Below, one piece after another: positions 1,717-48,163 of a stretch of DNA of 48,163 bases. Origin of the DNA: Bacteroidota bacterium (GTDB lineage Bacteria; Bacteroidota; Bacteroidia; UKL13-3); contig JAIXSO010000053.1 in the NCBI GenBank assembly GCA_027484685.1, positions 1 through 48,163 of the forward strand, in the 5' to 3' direction. Below the pieces are notes generated by a model, which was not told the origin of the DNA, made no database searches, and saw only the letters and a list, made by a program, of their open reading frames with translations. A program made the translations under genes and the position numbers. Numbering within the stretch: the first letter of the stretch is position 1; each line of letters starts with the position of its first letter.

Positions 1717-1749
1717 GTTTGGGGTTTGGGTTAATTGCTTTGCAAAAGT

Positions 1750-1773
1750 AAGTATTTACTGCTATTCAAAATA
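1750..1773 (+). repeat. Left copy of 24-bp direct repeat flanking the RM cassette
   Basis: Begins AAGTATTTACTGC and matches 4383-4406 at all 24 positions; the flanking bases differ (t1749/c4382 and t1774/a4407). It lies 34 bases upstream of the map start. The copies are 2633 bp apart and enclose the whole RM cassette. It looks like a target duplication made when the cassette inserted. Confidence 0.85.
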
Positions 1774-1875
1774 TTTGTCAATCTTAATTATATAAGCTGT
1801 AATGAATAAAAGCTGTATTTTTATTTCGTAATATATTTTAACAGACTTACATCTGTCAAAAAAAATAAAAAATGA

Positions 1876-1907
1876 TTTGCACTATAGAGATAAACATTGT
1901 AAATTTG
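1876..1907 (+). promoter_or_regulatory. Bacteroidota-type promoter of the methyltransferase gene
   Basis: TTTG at 1876-1879, a 20-nt spacer, then TAAATTTG at 1900-1907. This matches the Bacteroidota sigma-ABfr consensus (TTTG, 19-21 nt, TAnnTTTG) exactly. The expected transcription start falls about 1913-1916, only some ten bases before the ATG at 1925, so the leader would be very short. Confidence 0.75.
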
Positions 1908-1922
1908 CATACTATAATTAGC
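1908..1922 (+). promoter_or_regulatory. Putative controller-protein operator at the methyltransferase promoter
   Basis: CATACTATAATTAGC starts at the base after the TAAATTTG element, covers the expected transcription start and ends two bases before the methyltransferase ATG. The same 15 bases recur at 4259-4273 in front of the controller gene. A protein bound here would block transcription, so repression of the methyltransferase by the controller is the natural reading. A palindrome ATTAGCTAAT (1917-1926) overlaps its end. Confidence 0.6.
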
Positions 1923-1924
1923 TA

Positions 1925-3025
1925 ATGTTACATAAAGATTTACGTCATATTCAATTCAAAAATATTGAAAAATGTATTCAAAATGAAGAGTTCTTTTCAG
2001 TTGAAAAATCTATCGCATTACTTGGCGATTCATTAGAAAAGATAAAACTACTTCCAGACTCTTCAATCTCTTTGATTTTAACTGATCCTCCTTACCATAG
2101 TACTAAAAAGGACAATATTGCCAATGATAAAGCATTTAATACGGATGATGAATTTATTTTTTGGATGAAGGAGTATTTTATCGAATGGAAAAGAATATTA
2201 AAGCCCAATGGTTCAATTTTTATGTTTTGTTCTTCTGCAATGTCAGCAAAATTGGAAGTTGCAATGTCCGAAAATTTCAATGTACTTTCTCATATTGTTT
2301 GGTCTAAACCAAATGATCCAGGTTTTGACGGTTGGAAAGGAAAAATGAAAAAAGAATCTTTAAGGCAATGGTACCCACATTCTGAAAGAATATTGTTTGC
2401 CGAGCCAGCAACAAATGGTAATTTGAAAAGATCTTGGTTTGGTAACTTTTTAAAAGAAATGAGGACAAAAGCAGAAATATCTGGTCATCAGCTTACTGAG
2501 TTGACTGGTTCATATGGCAAAGTTAATCACGGTGGTGCAGTTTCTAACTGGGAAACTGGCAGAAATATTCCAAGTCGTGAGCAATATGACAAAATTTGTG
2601 AAGTTTTAATAGGCACTGGCAAAATTAAAGATTTACCTGACTATGAAGATGTAATAAGAAAATTTGAAGTTAGTGCTGATATTCAATTTACAGATGTTTG
2701 GGATTTCAACTCAGTAAGACCTTACAATGGTAAACATCCAGCGGAAAAACCACTTGAAATGCTGGAACATTGCATAAACGCAACAACATTTGAAGATGAT
2801 ATTATTTTAGATTGCTTTGGTGGATCGGGTAGCACTTCAATTGCCGCTTTGAACTTAAACAGATATTCAATTAGTATAGAATTAGAAAAAGAGTGGTACG
2901 AGGTTATTAAAGTGCGTTTAGAAAATTATAGAGAAGTTCCTTTGAAAAGTAATGGCTCTAAATCATCATTAATGAAGGCCACTAAACAAACAAATAATAA
3001 ACGTCAAGCTTCTTTATTTACTTAA
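1925..3025 (+). CDS. DNA methyltransferase of a type II RM system (N4-C/N6-A class)
   Basis: A 366-residue SAM-dependent DNA methyltransferase, expected to protect host sites from the adjacent nuclease. The catalytic motif TDPPY is at residues 53-57, and the SAM-binding motif DCFGGSGS is near the C-terminus (296-303), preceded by HPAEKP (271-276). This motif order (catalytic before SAM-binding) is that of beta-class amino-methyltransferases. DPPY leaves open whether adenine N6 or cytosine N4 is modified. Between the two halves, about residues 172-232, is an inserted segment that reads like an XRE-type helix-turn-helix (LKEMRTKAEISGHQL ... VSNWETGRNIPS), possibly for target recognition or self-regulation. 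The gene converges on the nuclease gene and the two stops overlap by four bases. It has its own promoter and a putative operator. Confidence 0.9.
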   Translation: MLHKDLRHIQFKNIEKCIQNEEFFSVEKSIALLGDSLEKIKLLPDSSISLILTDPPYHSTKKDNIANDKAFNTDDEFIFWMKEYFIEWKRILKPNGSIFMFCSSAMSAKLEVAMSENFNVLSHIVWSKPNDPGFDGWKGKMKKESLRQWYPHSERILFAEPATNGNLKRSWFGNFLKEMRTKAEISGHQLTELTGSYGKVNHGGAVSNWETGRNIPSREQYDKICEVLIGTGKIKDLPDYEDVIRKFEVSADIQFTDVWDFNSVRPYNGKHPAEKPLEMLEHCINATTFEDDIILDCFGGSGSTSIAALNLNRYSISIELEKEWYEVIKVRLENYREVPLKSNGSKSSLMKATKQTNNKRQASLFT

Positions 3026-4002
3026 AATTTTATTCCTTCTTTAAGGTTTTTATCTACAATTACTTTCATCCATTTTAAAGTGTCAATAATTCCAGAATCT
3101 TTACAAACAACATTACAGTGATGATGCCCCCAACCGAGATTATAAGGTTTATGATTAAAGAAACCTGTTCGCAGTTCTTTGATGTGAAACAGATTTATCT
3201 CAGTAACAGTTAAATCTGGCACAATTCTACCCTCTGCTTGTGCTAGTCTGCTTAAAAATCCAATACCTTTCAATTTTTCTAAACATAGTGGGCATACCGT
3301 ATTACCATCGTTGTCTATTATTCTATTTTCTTTAAGTAGAAAATGGTTTGCAAGTTTTCTATCTTTGCAAATACCTTCAATATGAGATTTCCTTAATTCA
3401 ATGCTTTCCAATGTCATTCCAGCCTCCAACGCTACCTGTTTAGAGTCAATACAAAGCCAAAAAAGATACTCAAGTTGATTTTGACAATCTTTCATTACTT
3501 CTTTACTTGCATATTCATAAACACGAATTCCAGCACCCTTTAATTTACTAATATTGAAGCCATAACTAATCTTTTTATCGCCAGAAGAAGTAGTGGAGGG
3601 AACTCTAGCAACAAAGCTTCCTCCAAGAGGTTGAGTTCTTTTAGTTGCAGGTTTCAGCTTTCGACTAATTGGGTTATAATCATTCCACTGGTGCCTGGTT
3701 TCATAAAATAGTAGAGCATTTTTACCCAGTTTCAATCCTTTAGAAAGCATTTCATTTTCAAAATTTTCTTTACTAAAATATTCTAAAGGATTTATTAATA
3801 CAATGAAGCCATTTTCAAATTTCCCTTTATTTCCAAGGGCTTCATTTATTGAAATATAGAAGTCGTAAGGAATTAAAACAGTGCTATTTCGATTAACTCT
3901 ATTCTGAAAAATTACATCATCATCTGCACCACGTGTTTGACCAGTTTTGTAAATTTTACTTTTCAATAATTGTGGTAAGCTCGGAATTCTTTTTTTACTC
4001 AT
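3022..4002 (-). CDS. HNH-type type II restriction endonuclease
   Basis: A 326-residue protein between the methyltransferase and controller genes, hence the restriction partner. The C-terminal third carries an HNH-like beta-beta-alpha metal domain: CPLC (237-240), LFHIKEL (271-277), then an Asn/His-rich turn ending GHHHCNVVC (292-300). The two Cys pairs (CPLC and HCNVVC) probably hold a structural zinc. The N-terminal about 230 residues begin SLPQLLKSKIYKTGQTRGAD, show no motif I can name and should hold target recognition. From memory the N-terminus resembles proteins annotated as BstXI-family nucleases; I could not check this. Its start overlaps the controller stop by eight bases, so the two are coupled. 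Confidence 0.8.
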   Translation of the reverse strand: MSKKRIPSLPQLLKSKIYKTGQTRGADDDVIFQNRVNRNSTVLIPYDFYISINEALGNKGKFENGFIVLINPLEYFSKENFENEMLSKGLKLGKNALLFYETRHQWNDYNPISRKLKPATKRTQPLGGSFVARVPSTTSSGDKKISYGFNISKLKGAGIRVYEYASKEVMKDCQNQLEYLFWLCIDSKQVALEAGMTLESIELRKSHIEGICKDRKLANHFLLKENRIIDNDGNTVCPLCLEKLKGIGFLSRLAQAEGRIVPDLTVTEINLFHIKELRTGFFNHKPYNLGWGHHHCNVVCKDSGIIDTLKWMKVIVDKNLKEGIKF

Positions 4003-4210
4003 TAAATAACTCTTTTATGTTTACATTGAGTGCATTAGCAATTTTTTCAATGTTAGCTAGAGTTATATTCTTTTCAGCTCTTTCTATCATACCAATATAT
4101 GTTCGGTGCAGGTCTGCTTTGAATGAAAGTTCTTCTTGAGAAAGTCCCTTGTCTTTTCTAAGTTCCCTAACTTTTTCTCCAAATACAATAAGAATTTTCT
4201 TTTTTGTCAT
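3995..4210 (-). CDS. RM controller (C) protein, XRE-family HTH regulator
   Basis: A 71-residue single-domain XRE helix-turn-helix protein: FGEKVRELRKDKGLSQEELS, then DLHRTYIGMIERAEKNITLA, typical of controller proteins that time restriction after methylation. I place the start at the ATG at 4210. The in-frame ATG at 4261 would add 17 residues, but it lies inside the operator and upstream of a good TAGCTTTG promoter element (4235-4228), so transcripts would not include it. The 71-residue length also matches the 70-80 residues usual for C proteins. It is the first gene of a C-R operon with an eight-base overlap into the nuclease gene. Confidence 0.85.
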   Translation of the reverse strand: MTKKKILIVFGEKVRELRKDKGLSQEELSFKADLHRTYIGMIERAEKNITLANIEKIANALNVNIKELFNE

Positions 4211-4227
4211 ACCTAACATTGAAAATG

Positions 4228-4260
4228 CAAAGCTATTTTTAGTATGCAATGCTTGCCACA
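4228..4260 (-). promoter_or_regulatory. Promoter of the controller-nuclease operon
   Basis: Reading the minus strand, TGTG at 4260-4257 (one mismatch to TTTG), a 21-nt spacer and a perfect TAGCTTTG at 4235-4228. It predicts transcription from about 4220, giving a short leader to the ATG at 4210. The inverted-repeat operator overlaps its upstream half. Confidence 0.6.
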
Positions 4261-4273
4261 TACTATAATTAGC
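4240..4273 (-). promoter_or_regulatory. Putative controller-protein operator at the C-R promoter
   Basis: TAGTATG (4240-4246) and its exact complement CATACTA (4259-4265) form a 7-bp inverted repeat with a 12-nt spacer, so the half-site centres are 19 bp apart, about two helical turns. The right half is the start of CATACTATAATTAGC (4259-4273), identical to the site at the methyltransferase promoter. The site covers the upstream promoter element and spacer, so autoregulation by the controller is likely. Confidence 0.6.
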
Positions 4274-4382
4274 ATTTTGTAATTTTAGAAATTAGTTTTG
4301 TTTGTAAAAGCCATTCACAAACATATCCATTCAATCAGCAAAAACAAGAAAGAATTTAACCACTTGTTAATTTTCAAAAAAC

Positions 4383-4406
4383 AAGTATTTACTGCTATTC
4401 AAAATA
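4383..4406 (+). repeat. Right copy of 24-bp direct repeat flanking the RM cassette
   Basis: Identical to 1750-1773. This copy lies 17 bases before the acyltransferase ATG at 4424, so in the uninterrupted ancestor it would have been part of the short map-acyltransferase spacer. Confidence 0.85.
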
Positions 4407-35816: not shown

Positions 35817-35849
35817 AAAGCCTGCATTTTTTAAATGTGGGCTTTTTTT
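35817..35849 (+). terminator. Rho-independent terminator after the PKD-like operon
   Basis: AAAGCC...CATTT pairs with AAATG...GGCTTT (two internal mismatches), followed by T7. An ATG at 35835 with an open frame lies inside this hairpin and is not used as a start. Confidence 0.85.
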
Positions 35850-35861
35850 ATAAAAAAAATA

Positions 35862-35892
35862 CTTGACAAATTGAATTTTAAAATTAGCTTTG
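35862..35892 (+). promoter_or_regulatory. Bacteroidota-type promoter of the membrane-protein/regulator operon
   Basis: CTTG (35862-35865, one mismatch to TTTG), 19-nt spacer, perfect TAGCTTTG (35885-35892). Start of the downstream gene is 21 bases further (ATG 35913). Confidence 0.65.
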
Positions 35893-35912
35893 CATTACAA
35901 AGTACTTTTAAT

Positions 35913-36557
35913 ATGAGTAATTCAAACCACAATTTAAACGACCTAGCACATATCCGTCAGTTAATGGAACGCAGCACCAAGTTTGTTTCGTTAAGCGGCC
36001 TTTCGGGAGTTTTTGCAGGAACATATGCGCTTATAGGAGCATTTGGAGTTTGGTTTTTTATCAATAAAATAGGTATCTCTAGCAGCAATTATCAAAATGA
36101 AGTTGGTAATCAATTATTTGGTTTAAACTTTCAAGAGTTTTGTTTTGTAGATGCCTTATTGGTACTTTTTTTATCGTTAAGCACCAGTTTTTGGTTAAGT
36201 TACAAAAAAGCAAAGAAATCAGGAGATAGCATTTGGAACAGCTTAACCAAACGTGTTTTTATAAACATGATGGTTCCTTTGGCTACTGGCGGTATTTTTT
36301 GTTTGTTATTAATTTACCATGGACAAAGTATTTTTATTGCGCCAGCTACTTTAATTTTTTATGGTTTGGCTTTGGTAAACGTAAGTAAATATACCTATAA
36401 CGATATTTTTCAATTGGGCATTATTGAAATACTTATTGGTTTATTAGCCATGTTTTTCTTGGCCAACGGACTCCTTTTTTGGACCATTGGTTTTGGCTTA
36501 ATGCACATTATTTATGGCATTGGCATGTACTTTAAATACGAACGTAAACAAGCTTAA
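35913..36557 (+). CDS. Hypothetical membrane protein (214 aa), partner of the winged-helix regulator
   Basis: Start chosen at the ATG at 35913 because an upstream in-frame ATG (35835) is inside a terminator and before the promoter. The short N-terminal helix (HNLNDLAHIRQLMERSTKFV) is followed by at least five transmembrane segments. The LAHIRQLMERSTKFxSLSGLSG start is a pattern I have seen in Bacteroidota membrane proteins paired with small winged-helix regulators. The regulator gene begins 29 bases downstream. Function unknown, perhaps a signal-sensing partner of it. Confidence 0.7.
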   Translation: MSNSNHNLNDLAHIRQLMERSTKFVSLSGLSGVFAGTYALIGAFGVWFFINKIGISSSNYQNEVGNQLFGLNFQEFCFVDALLVLFLSLSTSFWLSYKKAKKSGDSIWNSLTKRVFINMMVPLATGGIFCLLLIYHGQSIFIAPATLIFYGLALVNVSKYTYNDIFQLGIIEILIGLLAMFFLANGLLFWTIGFGLMHIIYGIGMYFKYERKQA

Positions 36558-36586: not shown

Positions 36587-36880
36587 ATGAAAATTGATAT
36601 TGACAATTTAAACAAAGCTTTTGAAAACCGAATACGCTTAGGCATTATGAGCGTGTTAATGGTAAACGACAAAGTAGATTTTAACACCATGAAAGAATTA
36701 CTGAACTTAACTGATGGCAACCTAGCAAGCCATATAACTGGCCTTGAAAAACAAGGTTATATAGCCATCAATAAACAATTTGTAGGCAAAAAACCCAATA
36801 CCACTTTTGAGGCAACTTTAGGTGGAAAAACTGCGTTTAAAGCTCATTTAGATGCACTTGAAAAATTAATAAAAGGATAA
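36587..36880 (+). CDS. Winged-helix transcriptional regulator (97 aa)
   Basis: A single-domain winged helix. FENRIRLGIMSVLMVNDKVD (about 12-31) forms the first helices, FNTMKELLNLTDGNLASHIT (32-51) the recognition helix-turn-helix, and QFVGKKPNTTFEATLGGKTA (64-83) the wing. This is the ArsR/MarR-like 'transcriptional regulator' type (winged-helix DNA-binding). It is co-transcribed with the membrane protein before it and followed by four more membrane or accessory genes, so the cluster is probably its regulon. No Cys metal site is visible, so it is not a metal-sensing ArsR. Confidence 0.88.
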   Translation: MKIDIDNLNKAFENRIRLGIMSVLMVNDKVDFNTMKELLNLTDGNLASHITGLEKQGYIAINKQFVGKKPNTTFEATLGGKTAFKAHLDALEKLIKG

Positions 36881-36942: not shown

Positions 36943-37638
36943 ATGATACTAGCCATACCATTCTTATTAATTCAACCAATATTCATTATTTGGTTATTCT
37001 ACAAATTAATCAGATCAATTGTTACCGATTTAAAATCAAATGACTCATTATTTTTGAAAAATAATAATTGGTTATTGCTGCTTGTAGCAACAGCGGTTGT
37101 TGCGCCACTCTTAGGTTTTAATCTTCATGCCAGTGAAAATTACCAAAGTGCAGAATCGTGGGGCGGAGATGATATATTTAGGTTATTTGCTCCTAAATAT
37201 TTAGCAGATATCGCTATTTTCTATTTTACCACATTTGGTATTGTGGTAATTTGTTCTCATTTTTCTAAAAACCAACTATTTATTGAGTTATTAAGAAACG
37301 GTTTAGTAATCAGTTTAATTATTTTAAGTATAATTAGTTCTATTCAACTTGGGCCAATCGGGCTATTACTAACAGCCATTCCTTTTATAGGTTTCCTACT
37401 TATTGCCCCAATCATCAATATATTCTTGTTTACTGCAATACTTATGTATTATTTAAAAAACACACCAAATAAATTCATAAGTATCAAATCAACTTTGCTG
37501 CTAAGTATTTTTATAGCTTTGGTTTATGTTATTCTTTTTCAGTTTGCACTTTCCTTTTTCAAGGCCGAAAACTATAGCTTAATCAAAGCTTTTACCGAAT
37601 CTCACAATGGATTTATTCCTAAATTAATTAAAAACTAA
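36943..37638 (+). CDS. Hypothetical polytopic membrane protein (231 aa)
   Basis: Six or so hydrophobic segments spread over the whole length, a basic loop (LKNTPNKFISIKS) and a C-terminal FTESHNGFIPKLIKN. No enzyme motif. It lies 62 bases after the regulator, probably the same transcript or a nearby one. Not recognised. Confidence 0.6.
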   Translation: MILAIPFLLIQPIFIIWLFYKLIRSIVTDLKSNDSLFLKNNNWLLLLVATAVVAPLLGFNLHASENYQSAESWGGDDIFRLFAPKYLADIAIFYFTTFGIVVICSHFSKNQLFIELLRNGLVISLIILSIISSIQLGPIGLLLTAIPFIGFLLIAPIINIFLFTAILMYYLKNTPNKFISIKSTLLLSIFIALVYVILFQFALSFFKAENYSLIKAFTESHNGFIPKLIKN

Positions 37639-37661: not shown

Positions 37662-37717
37662 ACATCATGAAAAACGGATTTATTATTTTCATTTCGTCAA
37701 TTGTTTACACCTATTTA
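37662..37717 (+). repeat. 56-bp direct repeat, copy 1 (start region of the DUF4173 gene)
   Basis: Identical at all 56 positions to 38390-38445. It begins four bases before an ATG (37667) and encodes the same N-terminus as the DUF4173 protein (MKNGFIIFISSIVYTYL). Outside it the two loci diverge. The copies are 728 bp apart and enclose the Coq4-like gene. Confidence 0.95.
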
Positions 37718-37789
37718 TTAAACCAATATGGAATTAGTAAATATATTACTTCTCAACTTGGTATTATCACTGAGTTTGCTACCATTTAA
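37667..37789 (+). pseudogene. Truncated N-terminal duplicate of the DUF4173 gene
   Basis: A 40-residue frame: the first 17 residues equal those of the DUF4173 protein (MKNGFIIFISSIVYTYL), then an unrelated LNQYGISKYITSQLGIITEF and a stop at 37787-37789. In another frame the downstream bases read like a diverged version of the DUF4173 continuation (NILLLNLVL ... YLK versus NVLLLNLIL ... YLK). It is a leftover of the duplication and is not expected to be functional. Confidence 0.75.
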
Positions 37790-37824
37790 AACTCATTATT
37801 TAAAAATTCAAATAAATAAAATTT

Positions 37825-38367
37825 ATGAAACCAGTAATAATTCGATTCAAAAGAGAGCATTCCATAAGAGAGAAAATTCTGTTGTGGTTGTTGGGTGAAA
37901 TAATACCAATTCACGCCAAATTTTATACTAAAAGAAAACCTTGGGGATTAAGGACTCAAAATTTACTTTCTTATCCTGAAAACACATTGGGAAAAGAATT
38001 AGGTAAATTTTTACAAAGTGAAAAGCTACAACCTATTCCAAGAGTGGAACGTCACGATGCCTTTCATATTTTGTTAGATTTTGACACGCATGTGAATAAC
38101 GAAGCTGCGATGCAATTTTTTTTAATTGGAAATGGGAAAATTTCACCATTCACATTGGGAACAGCTGCTTTTGCAGGATTAATACTACCAGAACAATGGA
38201 ATAATTTTAGAATACAATACAATCGAGGTAAAAAAGCGAGAAACATTGCAAAATGGGATTTCCAAGAATTACTCACTGAAAATTTTGAGGATTTGAAAAA
38301 GATAATTTTTCATTTACCAATACGCAATGGTAAACTTCTTGAAAAGATAGCTGCTTTCGAAAACTAA
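37825..38367 (+). CDS. Coq4-like protein with HDxxHx11E motif
   Basis: A 180-residue protein. The motif HDAFH (residues about 72-76), eleven residues, then Glu88 (HDAFHILLDFDTHVNNEA) matches the HDxxHx11E zinc-binding signature that defines the Coq4 family. The following Gly-rich stretch (GNGKISPFTLGTAAFAGLIL), then the basic NRGKKARNIAKWDF, fits the rest of Coq4. In other organisms Coq4 organises or catalyses a step of ubiquinone synthesis. No quinone genes are nearby, and the bacterial homologue's role is unclear. The gene sits inside the 56-bp duplication and is a likely recent arrival. There is no signal or membrane segment. Confidence 0.7.
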   Translation: MKPVIIRFKREHSIREKILLWLLGEIIPIHAKFYTKRKPWGLRTQNLLSYPENTLGKELGKFLQSEKLQPIPRVERHDAFHILLDFDTHVNNEAAMQFFLIGNGKISPFTLGTAAFAGLILPEQWNNFRIQYNRGKKARNIAKWDFQELLTENFEDLKKIIFHLPIRNGKLLEKIAAFEN

Positions 38368-38389
38368 TTTTAACACAATAAAAAAATCA

Positions 38390-38445
38390 ACATCATGAAA
38401 AACGGATTTATTATTTTCATTTCGTCAATTGTTTACACCTATTTA
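38390..38445 (+). repeat. 56-bp direct repeat, copy 2 (within the intact DUF4173 gene)
   Basis: Identical to 37662-37717. This copy belongs to the intact gene and overlaps its first 51 coding bases. Confidence 0.95.
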
Positions 38446-39942
38446 CTCTATATGCAAGGCATTGGTGCAAACGTGCTCCTTCTTAACCTTATTCTTATCA
38501 CAGGTTTGTTTATTTCAAACCCTAATTATTTAAAAAACAAATTATCGTTGCTGTTTACTGCTGGAGCCATTTTAAGCTCAGTATTTGCTTTTGTGAACGG
38601 ACATGTATTAACTGTAATTGCCAATATTTTGTCGCTTACGCTTTTATCCATTTCAGTAAGTTTAAAACAGCAATCCGTATTAACTAGTTTATTGCATATT
38701 TTTTACTCTTACATAACATCCATAGCGCAAATAGTACGCAGGTTTAAACAAAAGTATTTTTCCGAAAATGAACAAAATGGAAACTTACGCAAACGCATAA
38801 TTATCTACTTAAGTAGCACTTTGGTATTTGTATTGTTTGTAATTTTATACCAAGCTTCTAACGCTGCTTTCAGTAGTTTTATCCAACAGTTTAGCTTAAA
38901 ATTTTTAACGGCTAGGTTAATATTTTTTTATGCTACATCTTTTATAGTAATGTATGCCTTTTTCCGTCCGCGTATTTTAGCAGTATTGGCCATTTACGAA
39001 AAAATGATTCCTTTAAACATAACCTCCGATGGTTACCAAAGTTACTCGTTTTTAGGTAATGATGTGGAGGAGGAAACCGAGTTTAGAACAGGTGTAGTAA
39101 TGCTCAGTTTATTAAATGGATTATTACTTTTAGTAAATGTAATTGACCTACAGTTTATGTTTGGGGGCGCGCTTTTACCAGCCAATATATCGTATGCCGA
39201 TTATGTGCATCAAGGTATTTTTAGCTTAATACTTTCCATAGTAATTGCTATTGCCATTATACTTTGGTATTTTAGAGGAAGCCAAAATTTTGCACAGCAA
39301 AAAACCCTTAAAACATTGGCTTATTTATGGATTGCGCAAAACTTAATCATGTTATTGAGCGCAGCTTACAAAAATAATTTATACATCAACGAGTTTTCAC
39401 TAACCTACAAACGCATTGGTGTTTACGCCTTTTTGCTTTGTACTATAGCGGGCTTAATTCTTACTTTTATAAAAATAGTAAACAAGCGAAGCAATTTTTA
39501 TTTGGTAAAAGCCAATTCATTGGTTTGGTATGCAATTTTAGTAATGGCAGTGCCAATTGGTTGGGATAAAATGATAGCTGAATTTAACATTTATCAAGCC
39601 GAAAGCAAAGGCAAAGAACCCGATATAAATTACTTATCAAGCCTTTCGTATCAAGCTTTGCCAGTGTTGTTAAAATACCAATTAACCAAACAACCTGATA
39701 CGTTTACCAATCCAGCAATAACTTATTATAACAACGGAACTTTTTCGCAGCAAAAGTTATTTAACAAACTGGTTGATTTTAGTATCAATGAAAACAGTTA
39801 CAGTTGGCAATCATACAACGTGGCTCGTTGTAAAACCTATGACGAAATAGTGCCTTTACTTGACCAATACAGTCATTTATTGCAAATACACCCCATCAGC
39901 AATTTAAAAATTTATGCCAAATACAGAAACTTAAACTTTTAA
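38395..39942 (+). CDS. DUF4173 (DUF4153-like) membrane protein
   Basis: A 515-residue polytopic membrane protein with about ten to twelve hydrophobic segments, interrupted by a charged loop (EEETEFRTGVVML). The region ADYVHQGIFSLILSIVIAI ... AYLWIAQNLIMLLSAAYKNN ... LTYKRIGVYAFLL and the C-terminal ISNLKIYAKYRNLN match my memory of DUF4173/DUF4153 proteins. Their molecular role is not established. The last 120 residues are soluble. Its 5' end is duplicated upstream with the Coq4-like gene between. Probably co-transcribed with the next gene (six-base gap). Confidence 0.85.
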   Translation: MKNGFIIFISSIVYTYLLYMQGIGANVLLLNLILITGLFISNPNYLKNKLSLLFTAGAILSSVFAFVNGHVLTVIANILSLTLLSISVSLKQQSVLTSLLHIFYSYITSIAQIVRRFKQKYFSENEQNGNLRKRIIIYLSSTLVFVLFVILYQASNAAFSSFIQQFSLKFLTARLIFFYATSFIVMYAFFRPRILAVLAIYEKMIPLNITSDGYQSYSFLGNDVEEETEFRTGVVMLSLLNGLLLLVNVIDLQFMFGGALLPANISYADYVHQGIFSLILSIVIAIAIILWYFRGSQNFAQQKTLKTLAYLWIAQNLIMLLSAAYKNNLYINEFSLTYKRIGVYAFLLCTIAGLILTFIKIVNKRSNFYLVKANSLVWYAILVMAVPIGWDKMIAEFNIYQAESKGKEPDINYLSSLSYQALPVLLKYQLTKQPDTFTNPAITYYNNGTFSQQKLFNKLVDFSINENSYSWQSYNVARCKTYDEIVPLLDQYSHLLQIHPISNLKIYAKYRNLNF

Positions 39943-39948
39943 TAAAAC

Positions 39949-40671
39949 ATGAATAACAACCATCAAACCAACATGACCAAAACTATAGTTTGGCTTACAG
40001 CCTTTAGCATTGCCATGGGCTTTTTAGAAAGTGCGGTAGTAATTTATATCCGCGAAATGTATTACCCGGCAGGATTCAATTTTCCTTTGGTTGATATAAA
40101 ACGAAATATTGTAGTTGTTGAACTTTGGCGCGAATTGGCCACCATTATTATGCTTGCAGCAATTGGCTATTTAACAGGAAAAACCAAAGCACAACGATTT
40201 GTATTTTTCTTATTTAGCTTTGGCGTTTGGGATATTTTTTACTACGTATTTTTAAAAATATTTTTAAACTGGCCAGCAAGTGTTTTCACTTGGGATATTT
40301 TATTTTTACTACCTGTGCCTTGGATTGGTCCAGTATTGGCGCCTTGTTTGGTATCGCTTAGCATGATAGCTTTAACATTTTTAGTACTATGGCTCGAAAG
40401 TAAAAACTATGAAGTACGCTTTAAAGTAAAACACCATTTAGTATTAGCCGGAGGTTGCCTCATTATAATTGGCACTTTTGTAATTGATTATTTGCAACTA
40501 TTATTTTTAGGTAAAAACAATTTAGCACCTGAAAAAATGTTGGTAGTATTTAAACATTACGAACCCACACACTACAACTGGAGTTTTTTTTTAATTGGTT
40601 TTATAACCATAACATATGGAGGCTTTTTGCTTTGGAAGGATCATTTAAAAAAAGAAAAATTTAAAAGTTAA
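39949..40671 (+). CDS. Hypothetical multi-pass membrane protein (240 aa)
   Basis: Starts six bases after the DUF4173 stop (MNNNHQTNMTK; a second ATG eight codons in is possible). Six or so transmembrane segments, with conserved-looking ESAVVIYIREMYYPAGFNFP and PWIGPVLAPCLVSLSMIAL. It forms an operon with the DUF4173 gene. I know of similar proteins in Bacteroidota but not their function. Confidence 0.7.
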   Translation: MNNNHQTNMTKTIVWLTAFSIAMGFLESAVVIYIREMYYPAGFNFPLVDIKRNIVVVELWRELATIIMLAAIGYLTGKTKAQRFVFFLFSFGVWDIFYYVFLKIFLNWPASVFTWDILFLLPVPWIGPVLAPCLVSLSMIALTFLVLWLESKNYEVRFKVKHHLVLAGGCLIIIGTFVIDYLQLLFLGKNNLAPEKMLVVFKHYEPTHYNWSFFLIGFITITYGGFLLWKDHLKKEKFKS

Positions 40672-46485: not shown

Positions 46486-46857
46486 TCACATCTCACTTTT
46501 CACATTAAAAATAAACCAAGCCCAACCTATCAATACAAACTGAAATGGTAAGCGAATATATGCTACTAACTTACTGCCTACCACAGGATTTTCTTTAAAA
46601 ACATCAATTACATGAAGTGGCAAAAACACCAACATTAAAATAAAAATACCTAAAGTGCCAAACCTGCTGTAACGAGGAATTAAAGTGCATAAACCAACCA
46701 AAATTTCTATTATTCCACTACCATAAATGATTGCTTCTTGAGGCCACTGATTTGGGAAGAATGGCAAATACACAGCTGGACTAATAAAATGCATAACTCC
46801 CGCTATAATCATGATTATACCAAAAACTAGGGTTAATATTTTCTTTGAATTTTTCAT
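46486..46857 (-). CDS. DoxX-like membrane protein
   Basis: A 123-residue four-helix membrane protein of the DoxX superfamily. LTLVFGIIMIIAGVMHFISP is the family opening, then IIYGSGIIEILVGL, LGIFILMLVFLPLHVIDVFK and FQFVLIGWAWF. The exact role is not known; DoxX-like proteins are linked to oxidative stress and quinone or thiosulfate metabolism in some bacteria. It stands alone; a perfect ATTGCAAT palindrome lies about 50 bases upstream. Confidence 0.8.
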   Translation of the reverse strand: MKNSKKILTLVFGIIMIIAGVMHFISPAVYLPFFPNQWPQEAIIYGSGIIEILVGLCTLIPRYSRFGTLGIFILMLVFLPLHVIDVFKENPVVGSKLVAYIRLPFQFVLIGWAWFIFNVKSEM

Positions 46858-47172: not shown

Positions 47173-47343
47173 CACTACTATCCGTAGTCTGAAGCAAAGC
47201 CAAAGCAGAGGGTCCGAAAGCTTTCGGACTGGGGATTTAAAATGAAAAAAGAGTTTCCTAACTCGTTTGTAAAAGCCCGTGTCGGAGACACTACAATTCA
47301 TTTAAAATCCGTAGAGCGCTGCGCTAACTCTACGGATAGTTAA
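47173..47343 (+). repeat. Repeat element R1 (171 bp)
   Basis: Starts CACTACTATCCGTAGTCTGA and ends ACTCTACGGATAGTTAA. The ends ACTATCCGTAG and CTACGGATAGT are inverted copies. Contains GTCCGAAAG-CTTTCGGAC (a perfect 18-base palindrome, 47212-47229) that R2 lacks, and a 33-codon open frame (47242-47343, MKKEFPNSFVKARVGD ...). Mostly identical to R2 elsewhere. Confidence 0.8.
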
Positions 47344-47475: not shown

Positions 47476-47799
47476 ATGAGTAAGTATAAATTTTACATAA
47501 TTCTTTTTTCTATTTATTTAAATATATTTTTTACATCTGATTATATTGTAAAATTGTTAGATTATAGTTATAGGCAGAGTGTAAGCGAATTTAAAATATT
47601 ATTATTAATACTAATATTTTTGATTTTAAACGGACTACTCAGTTTATCAATTTATAAATTTAGAGTAAGGCTAAATAAAGAGTTTGGAATAATATTCTAC
47701 ATATCAAATTTTATTCATTGGATAATAACCTCATTAATAATTATAGTATTCACGTTGAGTTTAATTGTACAGGTGGTTTCTATGGAAATTAAATTATAA
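47476..47799 (+). CDS. Hypothetical membrane protein (107 aa)
   Basis: Three hydrophobic segments (about 5-25, 38-58 and 74-105) separated by charged turns (DYSYRQSVSEFK, KFRVRLNKEFG). It is flanked by R1 on the left and R2 on the right. Not recognised. Confidence 0.55.
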   Translation: MSKYKFYIILFSIYLNIFFTSDYIVKLLDYSYRQSVSEFKILLLILIFLILNGLLSLSIYKFRVRLNKEFGIIFYISNFIHWIITSLIIIVFTLSLIVQVVSMEIKL

Positions 47800-48163
47800 A
47801 ATATATCAAAAATAATACTCGAATCGTTTTTCACCCATTTTAGTGTTTAAGCGAAGCAACAAGCAACTTTGACTTACTATCCAATAATGGCGTTCTGTTA
47901 AATTTTTAAAAGTGTAAAAATATTATTCCAATTACACTACTATCCTTAGTCTGAAGCAAAGCCAAAGCAGAGGGACTACGGATTTAAAATGAAAAAAGAG
48001 TTTCCTAACTCGTTTGTAAAAGCCCGTGTTGGAGACACTACAATTCATTTAGAATCCTTAGAGCGCTTCGCTAATGCTACGGATAGTTAAATATTTTGCC
48101 TTGATAATTTAAAATTGCATGTTTGGAATTGGTGAATTTTTATTAGTTATTAGCCACCTAACA
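47800..48163. other. Repeat-bearing end of the window
   Basis: No gene is supported in the 364 bases outside R2. There is a GTTTAAGCGAAGCAACAA-containing stretch near 47848. The window stops shortly after R2, so any following gene is out of view. Confidence 0.6.
47935..48090 (+). repeat. Repeat element R2 (156 bp)
   Basis: Direct copy of R1 with a few substitutions and without the 18-base palindrome (GACTACG is present instead of about 22 bases). The same frame is open for 33 codons (47989-48090), ending at the same place. The left end is CCTTAG instead of CCGTAG, so its terminal inverted repeat is one mismatch weaker. Confidence 0.8.

Follow-up and report, generated by a model that had tools for sequence, protein, structure and literature searches.

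The stretch of DNA analysed here (the window) comprises 48,163 nucleotides of a contig from a Bacteroidota bacterium and contains a Coq4-like gene lying between two exact copies of the start of a DUF4153 gene. This arrangement raises the question of how the Coq4-like gene came to be placed inside a resident operon.

The repeat, the insert and the empty sites

The direct repeat consists of 56 bp, with forward-strand copies at positions 37662-37717 and 38390-38445 that are identical at 56/56 positions with a spacing of 728. The longest common word in 300 random pairs of 500-bp stretches from the same contig was 13, which rules out a chance origin of the repeat. The insert between the copies (37718-38389, 672 bp) contains a single complete gene, a forward-strand frame of 180 aa at 37825-38367 that encodes the Coq4-like protein. 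Its own genome (G000) gave one match to the insert in a DNA search. The perfect duplication and the one-gene insert had both been noted in a preliminary description of the window, which named the target as DUF4173; profile search assigns it to DUF4153 (PF13687, 179.7 bits).

The right copy leads into the intact DUF4153 gene (38395-39942, forward strand, 515 aa), whose leader is the right flank of the insert (38368-38389, forward strand). This leader is non-native and nearer to that of the DUF4153 gene in the congener G009. The left copy is composed of 5 nt of leader and 17 DUF4153 codons, and it opens a truncated 40-aa frame (37667-37789, forward strand), MKNGFIIFISSIVYTYLLNQYGISKYITSQLGIITEFATI, in which the 17 repeat-encoded N-terminal residues are followed by 23 residues from a diverged part and then by a stop. 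The possibility that these 23 residues are the end of a donor gene, for example the MarR-like gene beside the nearest Coq4 relative (L036), was considered and rejected, as no match was seen on inspection.

The surrounding operon, all on the forward strand, contains genes for a 240-aa protein with a weak DUF308 match below the cut-off (35835-36557), an HTH_34 winged-helix regulator (36587-36880) and a 231-aa membrane-type protein (36943-37638) upstream of the repeat, and a 240-aa membrane-type protein (39949-40671) downstream of DUF4153. A defence origin of the insert was dropped because PADLOC gave no match for the Coq4-like protein or for three operon proteins (the 231-aa, DUF4153 and downstream 240-aa proteins).

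A close DUF4153 gene was found in three of the nine other genomes of the genus (G003, 97% identity; G006, 96%; G009, 71-74%), and among the remaining six only G005 gave a DUF4153 match (27%). The single DUF4153 start of G003 and G006 comes immediately after the 231-aa gene, with one copy of the 56-bp sequence (56/56 in G003, 55/56 in G006) and no insert, which is the empty site that the preliminary description had predicted. The leader of these two genomes closely matches the sequence preceding the left copy in the window. The insert is also absent from G009, where the leader is different. No match to the Coq4-like protein was found in any of the nine genomes, some of which are incomplete (G007 is 65% complete). 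The insert is absent and the target single-copy in G003 and G006, and both repeats consist of target sequence, as in a target duplication.

The left copy does not end cleanly at 37717. The following region (37718-37824, forward strand) continues the DUF4153 5' end in a diverged form with a broken frame, aligned from about 37724 to 37815, and then gives way to a spacer before the Coq4-like gene. The continuation is collinear with DUF4153, with 69 of 101 alignment columns identical and 13 gap columns, so that 19 of 88 aligned bases differ from the genome's own gene. Its score against that gene (75.5) was reached by none of 1000 dinucleotide shuffles and by none of 1901 windows from other parts of the 48 kb, of which the best scored 67.0; an earlier draw, from which the locus itself had not been excluded, gave 3 of 2000 windows at or above the score. 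Shuffles reached the score against relatives in 0/1000 cases for G003 and G009 and in 1/1000 for G006, and under a stricter alignment scheme in 1/1000 for the own gene, 19/1000 for G003 and 10/1000 for G009. The scores against congeners (G003, 67.5; G009, 67.0; G006, 60.5) are hardly or no better than those of unrelated windows, as the best of the 1901 reached 67.0. Fourteen other DUF4153 loci, comprising paralogues and orthologues outside the closest congeners, score 14-48. The remnant is closest to the genome's own DUF4153 and not to a foreign one. Overall, the left copy appears to extend over a further 90 bp or so of decayed DUF4153 sequence, a conclusion that is well supported but statistical. 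The upstream copy had been described as a truncated N-terminus with a stop; the 40-aa frame bears this out, but the DUF4153 match extends well past the repeat in diverged form.

The age of the event was originally read from the perfect identity of the copies, which was taken to indicate a recent insertion. This reading does not hold, because the 56 bp are identical in G003 and carry one difference in G006 despite synonymous distances over DUF4153 of 0.25-0.27, so that their identity is no clock, and because the adjoining stretch has diverged. The distance of the extension from the own gene (0.25) is about the interspecies synonymous distance and is too old for an event whose fresh trace is the 56 bp. 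These alignments suggest that a longer and older piece was duplicated, of which the 56 bp are the part that is identical. The right leader was compared with four leaders by mononucleotide shuffling of a 22-bp, AT-rich stretch; the score against the G009 leader was reached by 9 of 2000 shuffles, whereas the scores against the native leaders were reached by 1484 (own), 462 (G003) and 1794 (G006) of 2000.

The Coq4-like protein and its neighbourhood in other lineages

Bacteroidota generally use menaquinone. The inserted gene encodes a protein that matches the Pfam Coq4 family (PF05019) at 35.7 bits against a cut-off of 22.9. The HDxxH-x11-E metal motif is intact in the protein and is present in 35 of 36 aligned rows, L063 being the one without it; the motif residues H, D, H and E are invariant in an alignment of the window protein with seven close relatives. 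A predicted model (mean pLDDT 82.9) gave only three matches at E ≤ 0.001, all of them chains of Coq4 homologues with solved structures (6E12 or 3MSQ), including 6e12_B (E 1.4e-5, probability 1.00, TM 0.57) and 3msq_A (E 7.5e-5, TM 0.55), with superpositions at an rmsd of 6.0-8.7 Å. A search by sequence only retrieved 3msq_A at E 0.029. The protein thus resembles the Coq4 family, including Alr8543 (PDB 6E12), in profile score, motif and predicted fold; it differs from the family structures in being a 180-aa protein of 17-18% identity, placed in the family here by sequence and model. Between the gene and its nearest relative, L036, dN is 0.26 and dS is saturated. The intact motif, the matched fold and this dN indicate that the gene looks intact and constrained. 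The HDxxH-x11-E motif, together with lipid-tail and metal binding, is described for the Coq4 homologue Alr8543 in PMC9774615. From its family and context, the window protein probably is helical, binds metal and lipid tails, and acts together with the DUF4153 membrane operon.

The nearest Coq4 relatives are L036 (68% identity) and L037-L042 (48-57%). No gene of this operon was found within about 6 kb on either side of them (for L041, about 200 bp upstream only), and no donor with the arrangement of remnant, Coq4 and DUF4153 was found. In a search of the insert DNA against 64 family genomes, 14 genomes, the own included, gave matches at E 0.001; outside the own genome, the highest-ranking match fell in the Coq4 region of G075 (70% over 141 bp), and the remaining ones covered at most about 66 bp. 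The window protein groups with L036-L042 in a tree, apart from most operon-linked Coq4 proteins, a placing that is only a lead because of long branches. The tree omits L070, the second record of G312, as L048 already supplies both G312 Coq4 rows.

Coq4-like genes recur beside relatives of this operon's genes (L024, L025, L048, L053-L057, L062-L066, L068, L070, L078 and L079). Among the 63 other family genomes, two have a Coq4-like match (G074, 44%; G075, 43%), and in both the Coq4-like gene is followed by one small frame and then by a gene of the DUF4153 family (27-28% identity). Among 395 evenly sampled genomes of the class, 25 (the own included) have a Coq4-like match at E 1e-8. In 14 of the other 24 the Coq4-like gene lies within 1.5 kb of relatives of the HTH_34, DUF308-like, DUF4153 or 240-aa genes, and DUF4153 itself is beside it in eight of these 14 genomes. 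The 14 genomes span seven families and are not independent cases, since five belong to one genus (g33) and three to one family (f38). Each of the eight genomes searched has only one or two HTH_34 matches above 90 bits, and because strong HTH_34 genes are so few, the adjacency is far above chance by our own comparison. The slot taken by the insert is therefore not arbitrary. No published description of a Coq4, HTH_34 and DUF4153 gene group was found among the listed matches to literature searches on DUF4153, with Bacteroidetes or Coq4.

The neighbourhood does not depend on the duplication. For ten loci with Coq4 and DUF4153, the first 200 bp of DUF4153 and the 40 bp before it were compared with the 400 bp before Coq4; the exact words shared were only 7-11 bp, and none of the ten loci (0/10) had a flanking exact repeat longer than 11 bp. 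The local alignment score was slightly above shuffles at one of the ten (L078, 88.0 against a shuffled maximum of 81.0). The groups in the 14 class genomes and in G074 and G075 are thus like the window in that Coq4 adjoins relatives of the operon genes, and unlike it in that their Coq4 proteins are 25-44% identical to that of the window and direct repeats above 11 bp are lacking at the ten loci. The preliminary description had held that relatives with the Coq4-like gene but no duplication would speak against an insertion. Such relatives do occur, in other genera and families; at 25-44% identity they are distant, and they do not refute an insertion at this locus.

Origin of the insert

The explanation preferred here, given about an even chance of being correct, is lateral gain of the Coq4-like gene on DNA that already carried DUF4153-derived ends and that recombined into the 5' end of DUF4153. 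The gene would have been acquired laterally and placed directly upstream of DUF4153 in the regulator and membrane-protein operon. The incoming DNA would have come from a related lineage, with Coq4 preceded by a decayed 5' piece of DUF4153 and followed by a leader of DUF4153 type, and homologous recombination with the 5' end of the resident DUF4153 would have brought it in. The left crossover would lie about 51 nt into DUF4153 and the right crossover at its start codon; with these positions the resident 5' end would now stand on both sides of the insert. DUF4153 would keep its full frame with a new leader, and the left copy would remain as the 40-aa stump.

The 231-aa gene upstream of the insert suggests exchange of DNA between lineages. 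It is a mosaic of G003-like and G006-like sequence. Its dS is 0.074 to G003 and 0.35 to G006, and its third-position differences per 50 codons are 4, 6, 0, 2 and 0 against G003 and 0, 10, 13, 16 and 6 against G006, so that the first 50 codons are identical to G006 at third positions and the remainder is nearer to G003. The dS of DUF4153 is 0.27 to G003 and 0.26 to G006. The shift in dS at the insert is not a clean breakpoint, because dS to G003 also differs between other genes of the operon (HTH_34, 0.19; 240-aa gene, 0.14). Comparison with relatives found no local patch of foreign sequence in the DUF4153 gene, which places a right-hand crossover, if any, at or very near the start codon.

The second explanation in order of preference is a one-step insertion across a staggered break, with the 56 bp of target copied on both sides and the similarity of the extension due to chance or to foreign DNA. 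It is considered a possible but rather unlikely account. As it would predict, each 56-bp copy is identical to the empty site of G003, and a clean case of the same kind is present in the window. This is a restriction-modification (RM) pair at 1925-4002, comprising a DNA methylase gene (1925-3025, forward strand) and a BstXI-type endonuclease gene (3022-4002, reverse strand), with copies of a 24-bp target duplication at 1750-1773 and 4383-4406. The locus (1739-4406) is empty in G003, where the whole 24 bp occur once (24/24), and in G006, where the last 20 bp occur once; the resemblance between the Coq4 and RM arrangements that had been pointed out earlier was thus upheld. RM insertions with long, variable target duplications are described in PMC1643837 and PMC3031569. 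A single staggered joining would, in our own wording of it, leave the rest of the insert unrelated to the target, but here 37724-37815 is DUF4153-like, although less markedly under the stricter alignment scheme, and matches DUF4153 better than 1901 windows and 1000 shuffles, and the right leader looks DUF4153-like, if weakly, and nearer to that of G009. With an old, diverged left extension and a non-native right leader, single staggered insertion does not explain everything.

Eleven junctions between the contig and G003 were hand-picked as collinear; they were not all simple insertions, and one was of only 28 bp. A flanking repeat clearly above the null maximum of 13 was found at two of the 11, RM and Coq4. 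The junction at a 107-aa frame gave a 15-bp repeat within a narrow window, and longer repeats lie outside it. About 170 bp are repeated there at 91-98% identity (47173-47343 and 47935-48090), bounding the 107-aa frame (47476-47799), with one matching copy in G003 shortly after the gene at 46486-46857 and short matches only in G006; this locus may represent either a third duplication-associated insertion or a dispersed repeat between genes. Elsewhere in the window, at 815-1624, most of an M24 peptidase gene region is without a counterpart at the corresponding position in G003, which has about 50 bp there. In the same genome as the window (G000:C58), a 48-bp exact direct repeat that includes an inverted repeat occurs at 106681-106728 and 108157-108204 (L074, L075), 1.5 kb apart, and three very similar tandem copies about 670 bp apart lie at about 55500-57500 (L072).

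The third explanation is that the duplication and Coq4 predate the split from G003 and G006 and were lost there by recombination between the repeats, with the 56 bp retained, or homogenised later through gene conversion or exchange with a relative that has the empty site. This is judged improbable. In its favour, the remnant is about as distant (0.25) as the species are from each other and has its nearest match in the own gene. Recombination across the repeats would restore exactly the empty site, and the mosaic of the 231-aa gene is compatible with exchange. Two losses would be needed unless G003 and G006 are sisters, however, and the dS of DUF4153 is nearly equal among the three; the nine other genomes of the genus, moreover, give no Coq4-like match.

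An assembly artefact or chimaera is very improbable: the locus is known from one assembly only, but the insert is interior to a 122,807-bp contig and is found once in the genome, both junctions fall in the same gene start, the Coq4-like gene looks constrained, and reads are usually longer than a repeat of 56 bp. Delivery by a mobile element (transposon, phage or integron cassette) is the least credible of all; direct repeats do flank the insert, but 56 bp is far above usual transposon target duplications, the insert has no second frame of at least 60 aa on the coding strand (one antisense frame of 70 aa overlaps Coq4) and no frame of transposase size, no Rfam match was found in the window, a window-wide scan found no inverted repeat of at least 20 nt at the insert ends, and one scan of viral contigs found no Coq4 relative and another no exact match to the left junction.

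Known insertions and the meaning of the locus

The closest known system is insertion with long target duplication (Nobusato et al. 2000, Gene 259:99, as related in PMC1643837 and PMC3031569), which has been reported for the RM genes of Helicobacter pylori. The Coq4 locus shares with these insertions, as they are presented there, an insert in one of two close genomes with a single-copy empty site in the other, and long, variable direct repeats of target sequence (56 and 24 bp here). It differs in that the insert carries Coq4 and no RM gene, which in this window belongs to the separate RM insert, in the Bacteroidota-type host, in the left repeat that continues as an old diverged copy and in the non-native right leader. 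A likeness also exists to homology-facilitated illegitimate recombination in natural transformation, in which, according to PMC6382021, foreign DNA anchored by homology is joined at a short shared sequence; for the Coq4 locus such a mechanism would be putative. The type of event is known; the Coq4 insertion is a variant of it, unusual in its recurrence at the level of the operon.

A wider process can be proposed only tentatively. In it, this lineage would acquire single genes or pairs without a transposase; these would land at the 5' ends of resident genes or close to them and duplicate the target, which would be kept intact, and a gene could in this way be routed into a functional operon. The 48 kb would hold at least two products of this doubtful process, Coq4 with 56 bp and the RM pair with 24 bp, and perhaps a third at the 107-aa frame.

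Target-duplicating insertions are discussed for RM genes in the literature cited above, and at this locus the gene gained in a similar way is of a metabolic type. The slot that it took is the place where other lineages keep a homologous gene. The repeat itself seems to record a history, with an old, decayed part and a conserved part. The locus thus joins gene gain, operon building and homologous exchange, and it points to a recurrent group of Coq4, HTH_34 and DUF4153 genes.
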